Notes under the pieces: generated by a model
Database searches by the model: none
What the model was told of the DNA's origin: nothing
The model's input: the letters and a program-made list of their open reading frames with translations, nothing else
Origin: Leptonema illini DSM 21528
GTDB taxonomy: Bacteria; Spirochaetota; Leptospiria; Leptospirales; Leptonemataceae
Length of the DNA: 64,000 nt
Direction of reading: 5' to 3'
Assembly: GCF_000243335.1 (NCBI RefSeq)
Contig: NZ_JH597773.1
Location: 4,176,115 to 4,240,114, forward strand
In this document: positions 25,927 through 63,016 of the stretch, piece after piece
Layout: each line of letters opens with the position of its first letter
Numbering within the stretch: position 1 is the stretch's first letter
Made by a program: the position numbers and the translations under genes

Positions 25927-26787
25927 ATGGGCAGACTGGGGATTATTGCGGGGCGAGGCGAGCTGCCCTGGATTGCAGCGAGAGAGGCGCAAAGACGCGG
26001 AGAGGACTTCCGCGTCTTTCTTGTTTCGTCTGATCCGCCGCCCGAGGCGTTCGCCGACGTCAGCGAGCCTGTTCTTCTTACCAGGTTTTATACGTCCGTT
26101 CTCGCCGCTCTTCAGCGCGAAAAGATCGGGCGTCTGCTTCTGCTCGGTAAGTCGACGCGAGACGTGCTTTACGACCGCCCCTCCTTTGATCTGCGCACGC
26201 TCTGGATGCTTGCGCGCATGCCCAACCGCAATGATTATACGATCTTTCAGACCATCGAGCGAGCCCTTGCAAAGAGGAGGATTCGCGTGATCCCACAGAC
26301 CGACTATCTATCCGATTGCTTTCTTGAAGAAGGCCGTTACGGAAAGCGGCTCAGCTCCAGAGAACTTGAAGACATCCCCTACGGTATGCTCTATGCTATG
26401 GAAGTGAACCGCCTCGACATCGGGCAATGCGTCGTCGTAGGCGATCGCACCGTCTTTGCCGTCGAATGTGCTGAAGGCACCGATCGCTGTATCGAACGCG
26501 GCGGCGAACTCTTTCATAAAAAAGGGGCTGTCGTCTGCAAGGTCTCGAAGCGAAACCATGATCCGCGCTTCGATCTGCCGACGGCAGGTACACAGACGCT
26601 TGAAACGATGAAGCGCGCCGGATGCCGCGTTCTCGCCATCGAATCGAACTCCACCATCGTCGTGCAGAAGAAGGAATTCTTGAAAAAGGCGAAGGAGCTT
26701 GGTATCACCATCGTATCTCTGAAAGGAGATTTAACCGACGTGAAAAAGCTGCGTCGTATGAATCGTCCGTTTACGGCAAAATCATGA
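25927..26787 (+). CDS. lpxI: UDP-2,3-diacylglucosamine pyrophosphatase LpxI
   Basis: A 286-residue LpxI (formerly DUF1009) enzyme that cleaves UDP-2,3-diacylglucosamine to lipid X and UMP in lipid A synthesis. GRLGIIAGRGELPWIAAREA opens the N-terminal domain. VVGDRTVFAVECAEGTDRCI, KVSKRNHDPRFDLPTAGTQT and LAIESNSTIVVQK are hallmark LpxI stretches, including the conserved Asp-containing FDLP motif. It replaces LpxH, as in alphaproteobacteria and some spirochaetes. Its stop overlaps the lpxB start (ATGA), so the two consecutive steps are co-translated. Confidence 0.93.
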   Translation: MGRLGIIAGRGELPWIAAREAQRRGEDFRVFLVSSDPPPEAFADVSEPVLLTRFYTSVLAALQREKIGRLLLLGKSTRDVLYDRPSFDLRTLWMLARMPNRNDYTIFQTIERALAKRRIRVIPQTDYLSDCFLEEGRYGKRLSSRELEDIPYGMLYAMEVNRLDIGQCVVVGDRTVFAVECAEGTDRCIERGGELFHKKGAVVCKVSKRNHDPRFDLPTAGTQTLETMKRAGCRVLAIESNSTIVVQKKEFLKKAKELGITIVSLKGDLTDVKKLRRMNRPFTAKS

Positions 26788-42424: not shown

Positions 42425-42470
42425 TTGACACCCCTTTATTGTACTGAATAGTCAGTACAATAAAGGGGTG
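42425..42470 (+). promoter_or_regulatory. Promoter with a 42-bp near-perfect operator for the GMC oxidoreductase operon
   Basis: Perfect 19-base arms CACCCCTTTATTGTACTGA and its complement (42429-42447 and 42452-42470) surround ATAG. The core TACTGA-atag-TCAGTA is a typical TetR-family site. TTGACA (42425-42430) overlaps the left arm, so binding would block RNA polymerase. The downstream operon ends with a TetR gene (44573), the likely ligand-sensing autoregulator. Confidence 0.85.
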
Positions 42471-42482
42471 GTATAAGAGCTA

Positions 42483-43025
42483 ATGAAGAAGATCACGCGA
42501 AAACAATTCCTCGGCTCGCTCATTCTGGGCGGCACGAGTCTTGTCATCTGGAAGTCTCTGCCGCTTGGCGACATAAAGGGATACTATCTGACTCTATCGA
42601 GGTGGAACCTCGATACATTAAAAAAGATGGCCGATGCCGTGCTGCCCCGGGGGGACGGCTTTCCATCGGCCGAGCAGGCGCAGCTTTTCAGGCGTCTCGA
42701 CGAAGAACTGTATTTCTGCACGGGGTCGATTTCATCAGAGATGCGAGACGCCCTTTTACTGGCCGAATGGTATCCGTTTTTTTGCGGATACTTTTCCAGG
42801 TTCTCGAGGCTGAGTACCGAGGATGCGGCCCGTGTCATCGACACAGGAATGAAAAGCGAGAACGATCTGGTACGAGTCGTTTTCAGCAATCTGCGCATGG
42901 TCATCTTTATGATCTACTACGGCCATGAAAGTACGTACGCAAAGATCGGCTACGACGGTCCTTTCGGCGGATTCGGCGAGATACTCTCAGAGCAGCGGAA
43001 ATATTATGCGGAGCAAACACGATGA
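42483..43025 (+). CDS. Probable small subunit partner of the GMC oxidoreductase (gluconate dehydrogenase subunit 3-like)
   Basis: A 180-residue protein. Residues 8-25 are hydrophobic (FLGSLILGGTSLVIWKSL) after a KKITRKQ head. This resembles a Tat-like signal, but the twin Arg is absent (TRK). WNLDTLKKMADAVLPRGDGF resembles the start of gluconate 2-dehydrogenase subunit 3 proteins, which accompany and export the FAD subunit. It overlaps the GMC gene by 4 bases, supporting a two-subunit dehydrogenase. The assignment of family is tentative. Confidence 0.65.
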   Translation: MKKITRKQFLGSLILGGTSLVIWKSLPLGDIKGYYLTLSRWNLDTLKKMADAVLPRGDGFPSAEQAQLFRRLDEELYFCTGSISSEMRDALLLAEWYPFFCGYFSRFSRLSTEDAARVIDTGMKSENDLVRVVFSNLRMVIFMIYYGHESTYAKIGYDGPFGGFGEILSEQRKYYAEQTR

Positions 43026-44572
43026 GCGGCAAGATCTACGAATGGAAAGACATCACCGAGAGTCGCAAGATCAAAACGCGGGTTTGCATTATCGGAACCG
43101 GATGTGGCGGAGCGACGCTGGCCTCTGAGCTGACGAAGCTTGGCGTCGACGTCGTCATGCTGGAGCAGGGCGGGTATTATCCCACGTATACGTTTGATAA
43201 CCATGAGCTGAACATGGCAGGCAAGGTAAGCGCCGAGCGCAATCTGCAGACGACGGCCGACGGAGCGATCAATCTTGTTTACGGAAACAACGTCGGCGGC
43301 GCATCCGTGCATTACTGGGCCGACAGCTATCGCACGCCCGCCGATCGCCTTGAGATGTGGCAGAGCGAATATGGCATCGAGCATCATACGGAAAAAGATC
43401 TGATCCCCGCATGGGACGAGCTTGATAAACGGTTAAACGTGCATCCGGCCACGGACGAGTATCTCAATCCCATGAACAGGCTTGTGGAGAAGGGAGCGAA
43501 GAAGCTCGGATGGAGCGGCCACCGCGTGCCGCAGGCGCGCAAGCACTGTCAGAAGTCGGGGCACTGTATGCAGGGATGCGCCTTTGCGGCAAAGCAGTCG
43601 CAGCTCGTTACGCATATCGACGATGTGGTGAAGCGAGGGGGTACGATCTACTCCGATGCCCGCGCCGAGCGTCTGAAGATGGATGGTGGAAAGGTGCGAT
43701 CGCTTCTGGCCCGCGTCATCGATCGTCCGAGCGGGAAGGACGGACCACATACGATCGAGATCGAGGCCGATGCCTTTGTCGTCGCGGCCGGCGGTTTTGG
43801 CAGCTCCACCTTTCTCTTGAAGAATGATCTCAAGAAAAAGCTGCCTGTGCTGGGTGAGTTTCTCGGGATGAATCCGTCGCCGTTTGTGCATGCGCTGTAT
43901 GCGCATGACGTCATTCAATGGAGGAACATCCCGGCCGGTTTCGGCGTCGATCATTTTCGCAAGCCCGTCTACGATGTGAAAGGCAATTACGTCGAAGGCG
44001 GTTATCTTCTCATGCCGAATCAGCTGCATCCTGGAACGCTTGCCGCTATGATTCCGGGTATGGGCAAAGAGCATCAGCAGTGGATGAGCGCTCTGCCTCG
44101 TATCGGTGGTACGATCGGCTGGATCGACGATGTGCCGACGGAGCTGGGCCGCATCGAGATGGACGGCGATGTGCGAAAGGTTCATTACAGTTTCGGTCGA
44201 GTAGGGGCGATGATGATTCGCGATCTTTTGAAAAAGCAGGTTTTGATCAACTTTGCAGCAGGGGCTGAGAAGGTGCTGATTCCTGACAACAGGGCGACGC
44301 TGTTAACCTCACCCGATCAGATAGGCGTCATAGACGGTATCAGTCTTCGTCCGGGCACTCTATTGATGGCGGCGCCGCATCCGAGCGGAGGCTGTCGTAT
44401 GGGCGCCGATGCAAAGACATCGGTCGTGAATAGCGAGCACCGGGTGCATGGCTTTGATAACCTTTATGTCGCCGACTCAAGCGTCTTCCCGACAGGCGTT
44501 TCGGTTGATCCGAGTTATACGATTATGGCCTTCAGCTATGTAGCGGCAAGGTCGATTTCCGGAGCCCTTTAA
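43022..44572 (+). CDS. GMC-family FAD oxidoreductase
   Basis: A 516-residue flavoenzyme. VCIIGTGCGGATLASELTKL is the FAD dinucleotide loop, YGNNVGGASVHYWADSYRTP the GMC signature region, and HCMQGCAFAAKQSQ a Cys-bearing block. VVAAGGFGSSTFLL and HPSGGCRMGADAKTSVV, then NLYVADSSVFPTGVSVDPSY, form the C-terminal catalytic part with His. GMC enzymes oxidise alcohols, sugars or sterols; the substrate here is unknown. It pairs with the upstream small subunit, and a TetR regulator follows immediately. Confidence 0.9.
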   Translation: MSGKIYEWKDITESRKIKTRVCIIGTGCGGATLASELTKLGVDVVMLEQGGYYPTYTFDNHELNMAGKVSAERNLQTTADGAINLVYGNNVGGASVHYWADSYRTPADRLEMWQSEYGIEHHTEKDLIPAWDELDKRLNVHPATDEYLNPMNRLVEKGAKKLGWSGHRVPQARKHCQKSGHCMQGCAFAAKQSQLVTHIDDVVKRGGTIYSDARAERLKMDGGKVRSLLARVIDRPSGKDGPHTIEIEADAFVVAAGGFGSSTFLLKNDLKKKLPVLGEFLGMNPSPFVHALYAHDVIQWRNIPAGFGVDHFRKPVYDVKGNYVEGGYLLMPNQLHPGTLAAMIPGMGKEHQQWMSALPRIGGTIGWIDDVPTELGRIEMDGDVRKVHYSFGRVGAMMIRDLLKKQVLINFAAGAEKVLIPDNRATLLTSPDQIGVIDGISLRPGTLLMAAPHPSGGCRMGADAKTSVVNSEHRVHGFDNLYVADSSVFPTGVSVDPSYTIMAFSYVAARSISGAL

Positions 44573-45175
44573 ATGGCGAAAGCGATTCAAAAGCGCAAGA
44601 ACGGCGAAGAGACGAAGATCCGCATTCTAAAAGAATGCCTGCAACTCATCGCCGAACAGGGGCCGCTGAGTTTTACGCTCGACGAGCTGTCGGATCGCGC
44701 CGGCGTCGCCAAGACCAGCATCCTCTGGCATTTTGGAAGCAAAGAGGATCTGATCCTCGAGGCCGTCGGTGCGCTGTTCGACGACTTTGAGGTCAGACTG
44801 AAATCGTTTGGCATCGTAGACCCGACGCCCGAGAGGCTGCTGGCCGAACTTTTCGCCAGGGTTTCGGAGTGGTTCGAATCGGCGCCTGAGCTGAACGCCG
44901 TCTTCTTTCAGTTCATGTTTCAAAGAGGCGTGCATCCCGACATCACGGCCAGGCTGCGAGAGATGTACAGGGAGTTTCGTCGACGGCTTAAAGAGGCTCT
45001 GAATAACCCGGCGCTCACGCCGAAGGAGAATGAGGCCGTCGCTATCGCCGTGCTTGCGCTCATCGACGGCGTCTTTGTGCAGTTCTATCTGGAACCGGAG
45101 GCGGTCAGCATGAAGAAGACGTTTGCAACGCTAACGAAGATGGTTGCCGCCGATCGACTGAAGCTCGGGCATTGA
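44573..45175 (+). CDS. TetR-family regulator, probable repressor of the GMC operon
   Basis: A 200-residue protein whose ATG directly follows the GMC stop. Residues about 12-58 form the helix-turn-helix: ILKECLQLIAEQGPLSFTLD, ELSDRAGVAKTSILWHFGSK. The C-terminal helices resemble AcrR-type ligand pockets. The 42-bp palindrome upstream of the first gene is its probable operator, which would place its own synthesis under feedback. Confidence 0.9.
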   Translation: MAKAIQKRKNGEETKIRILKECLQLIAEQGPLSFTLDELSDRAGVAKTSILWHFGSKEDLILEAVGALFDDFEVRLKSFGIVDPTPERLLAELFARVSEWFESAPELNAVFFQFMFQRGVHPDITARLREMYREFRRRLKEALNNPALTPKENEAVAIAVLALIDGVFVQFYLEPEAVSMKKTFATLTKMVAADRLKLGH

Positions 45176-45295: not shown

Positions 45296-45332
45296 AAAAC
45301 TAATTGACTTAGTTTTTGGAAATCTGTACCTT
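45296..45332 (+). promoter_or_regulatory. Promoter with 8-bp dyad; predicted leaderless start for the hydrolase
   Basis: AAAACTAA (45296-45303) and TTAGTTTT (45309-45316) flank TTGAC. The same site holds a -35 TTGACT (45304-45309). After 17 bases comes -10 TACCTT (45327-45332). Initiation about 7 bases later coincides with the ATG at 45339. The operator would cover the -35. The TetR gene at 46169 is the likely binder. Confidence 0.7.
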
Positions 45333-45338
45333 GTTCGT

Positions 45339-46172
45339 ATGCAAGAAACACTGACAGAGGCGATTGCCTCGGCGGGCAATCCGGTTCGAGCGGAAAGAGT
45401 AACGGCACTCGGCGGTAAGATCGCCCTTCTCAAGGCAGGCAGGGGAACGACGTCCGTGATTCTGCTGCCGGGAATCGGTGATACAAAAGAGAGCTACGCA
45501 GCGCTTCTTCCGATGCTTGCAGGCGAGGCGACTCTGTACGTTCCCGATAGCCGCGGCTTCGGAGAAAGCTCCGTTGCCTTTGATTCGTTTAGCGTGACCG
45601 ATGTGGCCACCGACACCGTGCGTTTGATCGAAGAGACAGATCTAAAAGACGTAATTATCGTCGGCAACTCCGGGATGGCGGCAAGCGCCGTGTACACTGC
45701 GGCGGAGCTGCCCGGCCGTATCAGAGGAATCGTCCTCACCGGACCGTTTCTTCGCGATCAGCCGACTGGCTGGTTCATCACCTTTCTCATGAAGCAGCTG
45801 TTTCGCAGGCCGTGGGGGCCTGTGCTCTGGGCCGCCTACTATAAATCGCTGCATAAATCCGTATTGCCCGATGACTTATCCGGCCATGCCGCCTTATTAA
45901 AGAAGACGCTGAAGTCGAAGGCTCGCCTGACAGCGCTCGGGCAGATGCTCTTCTCATCGAAAGAAGCCTGTGAGCTGCGAATCCCTGAAGTAAAGGCTCG
46001 CGTCGCCGTCGTAATGGGAACGGCCGATCCCGATTTCAAAGATCCGATTGCCGAGGCCCGATGGGCTGCAGAAGTGCTCAAAGGCGAACTCTATCTTATG
46101 GATGGAGTCGGTCATTATCCGCACAGAGAAAGACCCGAAGAGATGGCCGGAATCATCAGGGCAATGCTGTGA
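45339..46172 (+). CDS. Alpha/beta hydrolase
   Basis: A 277-residue hydrolase from ATG 45339; an open frame extends back to GTG 45225 but would translate the operator. LLPGIGDTKESYAALLPML is the oxyanion-hole region, VGNSGMAASA the nucleophile elbow (Ser), MGTADPDFKD the acid, and GVGHYPHRERPEEM the catalytic His. Pattern resembles epoxide-hydrolase/lactonase-like or haloperoxidase-like members; the substrate is unknown. No Shine-Dalgarno is seen. Its stop overlaps the GTG start of a TetR gene. Confidence 0.87.
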   Translation: MQETLTEAIASAGNPVRAERVTALGGKIALLKAGRGTTSVILLPGIGDTKESYAALLPMLAGEATLYVPDSRGFGESSVAFDSFSVTDVATDTVRLIEETDLKDVIIVGNSGMAASAVYTAAELPGRIRGIVLTGPFLRDQPTGWFITFLMKQLFRRPWGPVLWAAYYKSLHKSVLPDDLSGHAALLKKTLKSKARLTALGQMLFSSKEACELRIPEVKARVAVVMGTADPDFKDPIAEARWAAEVLKGELYLMDGVGHYPHRERPEEMAGIIRAML

Positions 46173-46732
46173 GACCGAAGGGAGCGACGTTAGACCGGGA
46201 GGCCGTCATCAGCGAGGCGATGAGCCTTACGCTTCAAAAGGGATACAGAGGCTATCAGTGGAAGGATCTTGCCGCCGCATTGAACATTAAACCGCCGTCC
46301 CTGTATAACCACGTCAGAGATCTGGAAGAGGTGCAGATCGAAGTGACCTATCGATGTCTTGACCGGCTTGCTCAGTATCTTGAGGTGCATCTGAGCAGAG
46401 CGCTACCCGAGCACCGATTCGAGACCATGCTGACGGCCTTTCGAGGCTTTGTGCGAAAGTATCCCCATTTCTATGATGCGACCGTGCAGAGTCATTACGA
46501 CAGCCGTTCGTATCGAGAGAAATCGTCGAAGGTTCTTGAGATCATCCTGTCGGCCATGGGCTTAGTCGATAACGAATCGTCCGTTCACAGGGTTCGACTT
46601 GTGCGATCTCTGCTGCACGGCTTTATCGAGCTTGAGCGACGGGGTGGCTTCGGGAGGCCCGAAGAAATCCAGAAAACGTTTCGCCTCCTGATTCAGGCGG
46701 CAGAGATGATTCTTGAGATGGATGCGCGCTGA
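46169..46732 (+). CDS. TetR-family regulator coupled to the alpha/beta hydrolase
   Basis: A 187-residue protein from GTG 46169 (GTGA overlap with the hydrolase stop). The helix-turn-helix lies at about 10-55: AVISEAMSLTLQKGYRGYQW, KDLAAALNIKPPSLYNHVRD. The WHG-type C-terminal domain (LVRSLLHGFIELERRGGFG) is common in this TetR subgroup. It probably binds the AAAACTAA/TTAGTTTT dyad upstream of the operon. Confidence 0.88.
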   Translation: MRPKGATLDREAVISEAMSLTLQKGYRGYQWKDLAAALNIKPPSLYNHVRDLEEVQIEVTYRCLDRLAQYLEVHLSRALPEHRFETMLTAFRGFVRKYPHFYDATVQSHYDSRSYREKSSKVLEIILSAMGLVDNESSVHRVRLVRSLLHGFIELERRGGFGRPEEIQKTFRLLIQAAEMILEMDAR

Positions 46733-61664: not shown

Positions 61665-63016
61665 GCCACAGCTTCTACATTACGACGCTCGGTTGTCCGA
61701 AGAATACGGCCGACAGCAGAGAGATGGAACGCTCTCTGCTGCTGGAAGGCTTTCAACCCGCCGACGACGCAGAGTCGGCCGACTTTCATCTGATCAATAC
61801 CTGCTCCTTCATCGAAAGCGCCCGCGAGCAGACCATCGAAACCGTCTTTGAGGCCATCGACGTAAAAGAGGCCGTTCAGAGCAAACGAGCCGATCAGAAG
61901 CTCGTCGTCGTCGGTTGCTTTACAGAGCGTTATCAGGCCGCCGTAACCGAGGAATGGCCCGAGGTCGATTTCAGCTTTGGAACGGGCCTGTATCACCGAG
62001 CCGGAGCTCTGATTCGCGAGGCCTTTCGCATTCCGCGTCCGCATGATTCCGAGATCTCTTCGCCGTTCGAGCATCTGAAACGCCGCGAGCGTCACCCGTA
62101 TGCGCCGGTTAAGGTGTCGGATGGCTGTGACCGCAAATGCGCCTTCTGCGCAATTCCGCAGTTCCGCGGCGCCTTTCGCAGCCGCGAGAGCGACGAGATC
62201 TTTACCGAGTGCTCCGATCTGGGAGCGGCGGGCGTGCGCGAGATCTGCCTGGTCAGTCAGGACACTAACGCCTTCGGTGGTAAGCCCGAAGCCCTTGTCG
62301 ATTTGATCGAACGCCTGAATACGATCGATTCGCTGCACTGGCTGCGCCTGCTCTATCTTTACCCCGATAAAAAGACCGAGCGCATTCTGCGCCTGCTTGC
62401 CGAGCGCGGTCTTAACCGATCGAAGCTTGTGCCGTATCTTGAAAGCCCGGTGCAGCACGTTTCGTCGTCGGTTTTGAAGGCCATGAAGCGAGCGGGGGAT
62501 TCGTCTTACTTTAAAGATCTTTTTGCGCTGGCCCGCGAGCTCTTTCCAGGCCTGGAGATCCGCACGTCGTTTCTGCTCGGATTTCCGGGCGAGACGGCCG
62601 CCGATGTCGACGAGCTGCACCGCTTCGTCGAAGAGACGCGGCTTGAGAAGATGGCTCTTTTCGCCTATTCGCCCGAAGAGGGCACAAGCGGTTATGCCCT
62701 GGGCAATCTGCCCGATCCCGACGAGACAAAAGAGCGCATCAACGAACTGCGTCAGACGCACCTGAAAGTGCTTGCAGACATCCACCTGCAGCGCGTCGGG
62801 CAAACATATAGATGTATGGTGGACGAGCTGCATCCGACTGAGATTATTTGTCGTCGCCCGCAAGACGCCCCGGAAATCGACGAGACGGTCGTCATTCCTT
62901 TCAAATATCAGAAGGGAATGAAGTTGCCCGCTCCGGGGGATCTTGTAGAGGTGGAGATCACCGGCTTCTTTGAATACGATATGGAGGGAAGGCTGACCGG
63001 GGCCGAACCTGTATGA
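61661..63016 (+). CDS. rimO: Ribosomal protein S12 methylthiotransferase RimO
   Basis: A 451-residue radical-SAM enzyme adding a methylthio group to Asp in ribosomal protein S12. The UPF0004 domain opens with TTLGCPKNTADSREME and has NTCSFIESAREQTIE. The radical-SAM cluster is SDGCDRKCAFCAIPQFRGAF (CxxxCxxC). TSFLLGFPGETAADVDELHR and a C-terminal TRAM domain complete it. CPKNTADSR and SFIESAREQ favour RimO over MiaB. ATGA overlaps with both neighbours show a tight operon. Confidence 0.94.
   Translation: MSHSFYITTLGCPKNTADSREMERSLLLEGFQPADDAESADFHLINTCSFIESAREQTIETVFEAIDVKEAVQSKRADQKLVVVGCFTERYQAAVTEEWPEVDFSFGTGLYHRAGALIREAFRIPRPHDSEISSPFEHLKRRERHPYAPVKVSDGCDRKCAFCAIPQFRGAFRSRESDEIFTECSDLGAAGVREICLVSQDTNAFGGKPEALVDLIERLNTIDSLHWLRLLYLYPDKKTERILRLLAERGLNRSKLVPYLESPVQHVSSSVLKAMKRAGDSSYFKDLFALARELFPGLEIRTSFLLGFPGETAADVDELHRFVEETRLEKMALFAYSPEEGTSGYALGNLPDPDETKERINELRQTHLKVLADIHLQRVGQTYRCMVDELHPTEIICRRPQDAPEIDETVVIPFKYQKGMKLPAPGDLVEVEITGFFEYDMEGRLTGAEPV

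Follow-up and report, generated by a model that had tools for sequence, protein, structure and literature searches.

The stretch of Leptonema illini DSM 21528 DNA analysed here (64,000 nucleotides, hereafter the window) probably carries a self-regulated catabolic operon, in which a TetR protein switches an FAD/[3Fe-4S] GMC dehydrogenase linked to long-chain alcohols or aldehydes and the arms of the operator may also act at the RNA level. What we computed comprises the palindrome and its overlap with the promoter, the operon, the co-conservation of TetR and operator, the cysteine motif, a Tat/PF13618 partner protein and an invariant Asp496. The features, in window coordinates, are:

42425..42452, plus strand: sigma-70-type promoter TTGACA-16-AATAGT (consensus scan, 10/12, the best of the region)
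42429..42470, no strand: 42-bp palindrome, two perfect 19-nt arms around a 4-nt centre
42438..42461, no strand: operator core ATTGTACTGAATAGTCAGTACAAT, common to distant relatives encoding homologous TetR proteins
42463..42470, plus strand: Shine-Dalgarno AAGGGGTG within the right palindrome arm (sequence; folding)
42483..43025, plus strand: small subunit, 180 aa, Tat-like N-terminus TRKQFLG, Gluconate_2-dh3-like hitchhiker
43022..44572, plus strand: GMC dehydrogenase, 516 aa, with C176-x5-C182-x3-C186 (predicted [3Fe-4S] ligands), His453 and Asp496
44573..45175, plus strand: TetR-family regulator, 200 aa, recognition region GVAKTSILWHFGSK

The genes lie in the order small subunit, GMC flavoenzyme, TetR and form a compact operon, in which a 4-bp ATGA overlap joins the first two and the TAA of the GMC gene is followed with zero gap by the regulator's ATG at 44573, just as the original prediction had read it; its GMC and TetR assignments also hold, with clear Pfam matches to GMC_oxred_N/C and TetR_N. 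Upstream of the promoter is a pnp-GNAT-membrane gene run, and no intrinsic terminator was found between this run and the operon promoter. The next cassette downstream (window 45296-46732) holds an alpha/beta hydrolase gene (ATG 45339) and then a second TetR gene, of the TetR_C_33 type; it has a palindrome of its own, AAAACTAA-TTGAC-TTAGTTTT, at 45296-45316 over a TTGACT -35, and is apparently a second self-regulated unit.

The palindrome (CACCCCTTTATTGTACTGA-ATAG-TCAGTACAATAAAGGGGTG) is by far the longest of the window, the runner-up having arms of 11 nt. The only other perfect inverted repeats with arms of at least 10 nt in the window are at 25991-26019 (11 nt) and 61714-61741 (10 nt). By chance, perfect arms of at least 19 nt with a spacer of 0-8 are expected 1.8e-4 times per 4.5 Mb genome and 2.6e-6 times per window. 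The promoter hexamers TTGACA (42425-42430) and AATAGT (42447-42452) are separated by a 16-nt spacer, and the transcription start is expected at about 42459-42461, within the right arm. The palindrome thus overlaps the -35 by 2 nt, as had been proposed, and it extends further, over the -10, the spacer before it and the position where transcription is expected to begin. A terminator role for the palindrome was rejected, as it has no U-run and is absent from the terminator list.

Regulator and operator core

The regulator has a TetR_N helix-turn-helix and a BetI-type C-terminal ligand domain, and in these domains and its autoregulated operon it is similar to BetI/AcrR-type TetR repressors. Its NCBIfam BetI score (52.5 bits) is below the equivalog cut-off of 201.3, and we therefore reject its assignment as BetI itself. 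The 24-bp core of the palindrome follows the pattern ATTGTACTGA-N4-TCAGT(N)2AAT. A search of the genome for the operator, named beforehand as a check, found the core GTACTGANNNNTCAGTAC exactly once in 4.52 Mb (3 contigs) and not at many unrelated loci, and further regulon members did not rise above control in this genome (86 sites at ≤3 mismatches vs 82 for the reversed pattern). The exact TTGTACTGANNNNTCAGT occurs at a single locus in each of three genomes (the spirochaete, a Halomonas MAG and an Oleiphilus MAG), always upstream of small-GMC-TetR. The motif that these three TetR-bearing operons have in common, upstream of the gene for the small subunit, is ATTGTACTGA-N-T-NN-TCAGT.

A fourth case of the operator, in Cupriavidus metallidurans, was reached through the TetR protein. 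When 309 Burkholderiaceae genomes were scanned with the operator alone (≤1 mismatch), 6 sites were found vs 0 for the reversed-pattern control, and all six adjoin a homologue of the window TetR (32-37% identity, E 1e-21 or better) whose recognition region VAKSSLLWHFGSK contains a helix near-identical to that of the window protein. These are related genomes and the 6 sites are not independent events; the association with the regulator is nonetheless complete. Each site is positioned between the TetR gene and a divergent gene, which encodes an aldehyde dehydrogenase in three cases and an alkyl sulfatase in the other three (two Pfam-confirmed, and one, L071, probable from a minus-strand open frame alone). 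The TetR/aldehyde dehydrogenase/GMC/alkyl-sulfatase loci of Cupriavidus and other Burkholderiaceae are similar to the window operon in their homologous TetR (~34%) and the same operator core, but differ in their divergent arrangement and in a GMC protein of the choline-dehydrogenase type, which lacks a small subunit of the window type. At L067, L068 and L071 the operator and this TetR subgroup are divergent to the alkyl sulfatase genes, which suggests that in Burkholderiaceae the subgroup is an undescribed regulator of alkyl-sulfate/fatty-alcohol degradation.

The operator pattern outperformed the TetR profile at finding new loci. Scans with the profile (294 order-level, 369 class-level and 300 Burkholderiales-level genomes) gave no new strong matches, and since few candidates were scored per genome they are weak negative evidence. 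The subgroup to which the window TetR belongs is apparently undescribed, with the recognition region VAK(S/T)S(I/L)LW(H/Y)FGSK and the operator ATTGTACTGA-N4-TCAG. Self-regulation had been predicted from the window alone; co-conservation of the regulator and the operator core across phyla now strongly supports that this TetR represses its own operon through the palindrome core, a reading that rests on sequence comparison.

Outer arms of the palindrome

The Shine-Dalgarno AAGGGGTG and the right outer arm are one and the same sequence. When folded, RNA with both arms reaches -32.1 kcal/mol (z -8.7) with the Shine-Dalgarno paired, whereas in RNA from 42458 on, without the left arm, the Shine-Dalgarno is unpaired. 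Read-through RNA would thus conceal the ribosome site, and RNA started at the native promoter would leave it free. The operator may therefore have a second role as a translational insulator, and we give slightly less than an even chance to the outer arms insulating the operon from read-through translation. Should the mRNA instead begin 5' of the left arm, the operon's own expression would be repressed by the hairpin. For I-TevI of phage T4, experiments have shown a promoter lying within a hairpin that contains the ribosome site (PMC2988022). In that and similar cases, as proposed here, read-through transcripts hide the ribosome site and transcripts from the embedded promoter expose it, and an operator overlaps the promoter; the difference is that here the operator is a bacterial TetR operator and the RNA role is predicted from sequence and folding.

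A competing explanation, which we hold to be nearly as plausible, accepts the TetR core but gives the extended arms no RNA role, and instead has them hold a second TetR dimer, as in long operators that bind two dimers. At 42 bp the palindrome is roomy enough for this, and its outer arms are paired at 9/10 positions just past the core. At the other operator sites, however, 1-6 of the next 10 positions are paired, so that strongly paired outer arms are seen in Leptonema illini alone among the operator sites examined, and the exact match of the outer arm to the Shine-Dalgarno sequence is a further point against this explanation.

The dehydrogenase, its small subunit and its substrate

The GMC protein has GMC_oxred_N and GMC_oxred_C domains and a GxGxxG FAD motif, and across 22 sequences G25, G27, G30 and H453 are invariant. 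C176-x5-C182-x3-C186 is likewise invariant across the family alignment, and these residues align with Cys212/218/222 of the Burkholderia cepacia FAD-glucose dehydrogenase (BcGDH), the [3Fe-4S] ligands of that enzyme (PMC6719666). By alignment, then, the GMC protein keeps its three predicted [3Fe-4S] Cys ligands. His453 aligns with the catalytic His476 and Asp496 with Asn519 (FAD-GDH numbering), and Asp496 is invariant in 22/22 aligned members (the window protein and 21 orthologues). The second catalytic residue of GMC enzymes is usually Asn or His, a usual rather than superfamily-defining trait from which this family departs; the rare exceptions among known enzymes are Pro, Arg and Ser in three (PMC8171062). 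An engineered equivalent of Asp496 exists in the cholesterol oxidase N485D mutant (PDB 3gyi). A His-Asp dyad given for pyranose oxidase (PMC9659204) was discarded as a precedent, as it appears in a figure legend only; the text has His-Asn, and the legend is probably a slip. The original prediction was silent on the [3Fe-4S] cysteines and the Asn-to-Asp active-site change, as on the Shine-Dalgarno in the palindrome arm. Two more small-subunit/GMC pairs occur in the same genome, L014 (G000:C1 2304898-2309376) and L015 (3979840-3984321), and both GMC paralogues have Asn at the Asp496 position; the L014 small subunit (SRREV..GAGC) resembles a lipoprotein of the Tat type, with an acyl-CoA dehydrogenase-like gene following at that locus.

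The AlphaFold model of the GMC protein has a pLDDT of 81.5, with residues 60-100 and 175-196 unsure, the cysteine loop included, and the top seven matches of a fold search with it are fructose dehydrogenase, with FAD-GDH alpha ranking next. Similar to FAD-GDH (gamma-alpha-beta) and the Gluconobacter fructose dehydrogenase, the window system combines a GMC catalytic subunit that has no signal of its own and carries the Cys-x5-Cys-x3-Cys ligands with a small Tat hitchhiker encoded next to it. It differs from them in identity (16-18%), in having Asp496 in place of the catalytic Asn519, in a substrate that is probably not a sugar, and in the lack of a multihaem cytochrome c subunit among the operon ORFs.

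A twin-arginine signal of the RRxFLK type starts nearly all homologues of the small subunit, 5/21 of which match the TAT_signal model and 13/21 PF13618 (Gluconate_2-dh3; best 3.2e-10), in agreement with the earlier proposal of an exported subunit. In the window protein the Arg-Lys motif of TRKQFLG is weaker than the twin arginine of its homologues; it has no Pfam match, PF13618 included, and, with a confident structure model (pLDDT 88), no PDB match by profile or fold. The resemblance suggests that it works like the hitchhiker subunit of FAD-GDH; neither sequence nor fold searches show a recognisable likeness to that subunit, and for this reason we claim the likeness for function and not for common descent.

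The small subunit as query against the genome contigs returned no relatives. The GMC alignment as query succeeded, with 25 near orthologues (48-62% identity) hosted by a Leptospiraceae MAG and by gamma-, beta- and deltaproteobacteria or Myxococcota; the small subunit is directly upstream of the GMC gene in all 24 loci with upstream sequence. The enzyme is rare, with 3 and 2 matches in scans of 342 and 296 genomes, respectively, which are partial samples, and a plasmid search with GMC found none. In two relatives the TetR gene directly follows GMC (Halomonas MAG, 40% identity; Oleiphilus MAG, 30%). Their GMC proteins are far from the spirochaete sequence on the tree, which means that the three-gene form either is ancient and has been lost many times or has been transferred. 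The nearest relative, in the Leptospiraceae MAG (GMC 62%; L020 4350-6509), is a small-GMC pair with a clear Tat motif, flanked by an FGGY sugar kinase gene and an NnrS gene, with neither a TetR gene nor the palindrome nearby.

Where the original prediction left the substrate open, gene neighbourhoods narrow it by inference to long-chain primary alcohols or aldehydes, a choice we consider somewhat better than even. The neighbouring genes differ among lineages, and those that recur encode an aldehyde dehydrogenase, an acyl-CoA ligase and an alkyl sulfatase. A Limnohabitans cluster reads aldehyde dehydrogenase, small, GMC, acyl-CoA ligase; a Ralstonia copy has DUF1302, DUF1329 and an acyl-CoA ligase as neighbours; and in C. 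metallidurans an aldehyde dehydrogenase is followed by GMC and then by an alkyl sulfatase. Alkyl sulfatases release primary long-chain alcohols, and the recurring neighbours together form an alcohol-to-acyl-CoA route, which points to this substrate class. No alkyl sulfatase was found in the window genome, so that the alcohol would here come from a different source than in Burkholderiaceae. Moreover, the Leptospirales obtain their carbon from long-chain fatty acids or alcohols (PMC3726837; PMC3746428).

It is unlikely that the same self-regulated operon serves a sugar, a sugar acid or a sterol, by analogy with the FAD-glucose, fructose and gluconate dehydrogenases and cholesterol oxidase. The nearest solved folds are indeed fructose and glucose dehydrogenases, the best NCBIfam match is cholesterol oxidase, though far under the cut-off, and the sugar kinase adjoins the Leptospiraceae MAG homologue. 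However, identity to the sugar enzymes is low, the contexts recurring in other lineages are those of the alcohol route, and the way of life of the Leptospirales, which grow on fatty acids or alcohols with long chains (PMC3726837), also speaks against a sugar or sterol.

Proposed mechanism

We infer TetR binding, inducer, substrate, electron path and RNA insulation to fit together as follows. A TetR dimer, or a pair of dimers, on the palindrome core over the promoter would keep all three genes off until a ligand releases it; this ligand is probably either a long-chain alcohol or aldehyde itself or something formed from it. The enzyme so induced would be a periplasmic or membrane-anchored FAD/[3Fe-4S] GMC dehydrogenase without a signal of its own, carried through the Tat system by the small subunit. 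It would oxidise the alcohol, and the electrons would leave via the iron-sulfur cluster and reach the respiratory chain by way of an acceptor encoded outside the operon. Read-through transcripts of the upstream pnp operon would fold the Shine-Dalgarno into the hairpin and stay untranslated, whereas transcripts from the operon's own promoter would start inside the right arm and be translated. That the palindrome is instead bound by another regulator, or is an RNA-only element (a terminator or mRNA stabiliser), with the TetR gene a passenger, is very improbable: the palindrome does reach well beyond the conserved core, and as RNA it folds into a hairpin of great stability, but the core turns up beside homologues of this TetR where the other genes are unrelated, and at the divergent loci among these a terminator role is impossible; the terminator list and the missing U-run speak against it here as well.

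A tentative proposal, which we regard as open to considerable doubt, is that these enzymes form a class of their own among the [3Fe-4S] GMC dehydrogenases, one in which a His-Asp pair is the natural working arrangement, and that in the spirochaete this is combined with a TetR operator that doubles as an RNA insulator. The analysis provides an apparently uncharacterised TetR subgroup, found from spirochaetes to proteobacteria, with an operator that is now defined and with a probable class of ligands, and defines an uncharacterised GMC clade whose active-site pair is outside the published list. To our knowledge the enzymes of alcohol oxidation are unassigned in bacteria living on fatty acids and alcohols, and the operon described here offers such bacteria a candidate long-chain-alcohol dehydrogenase.
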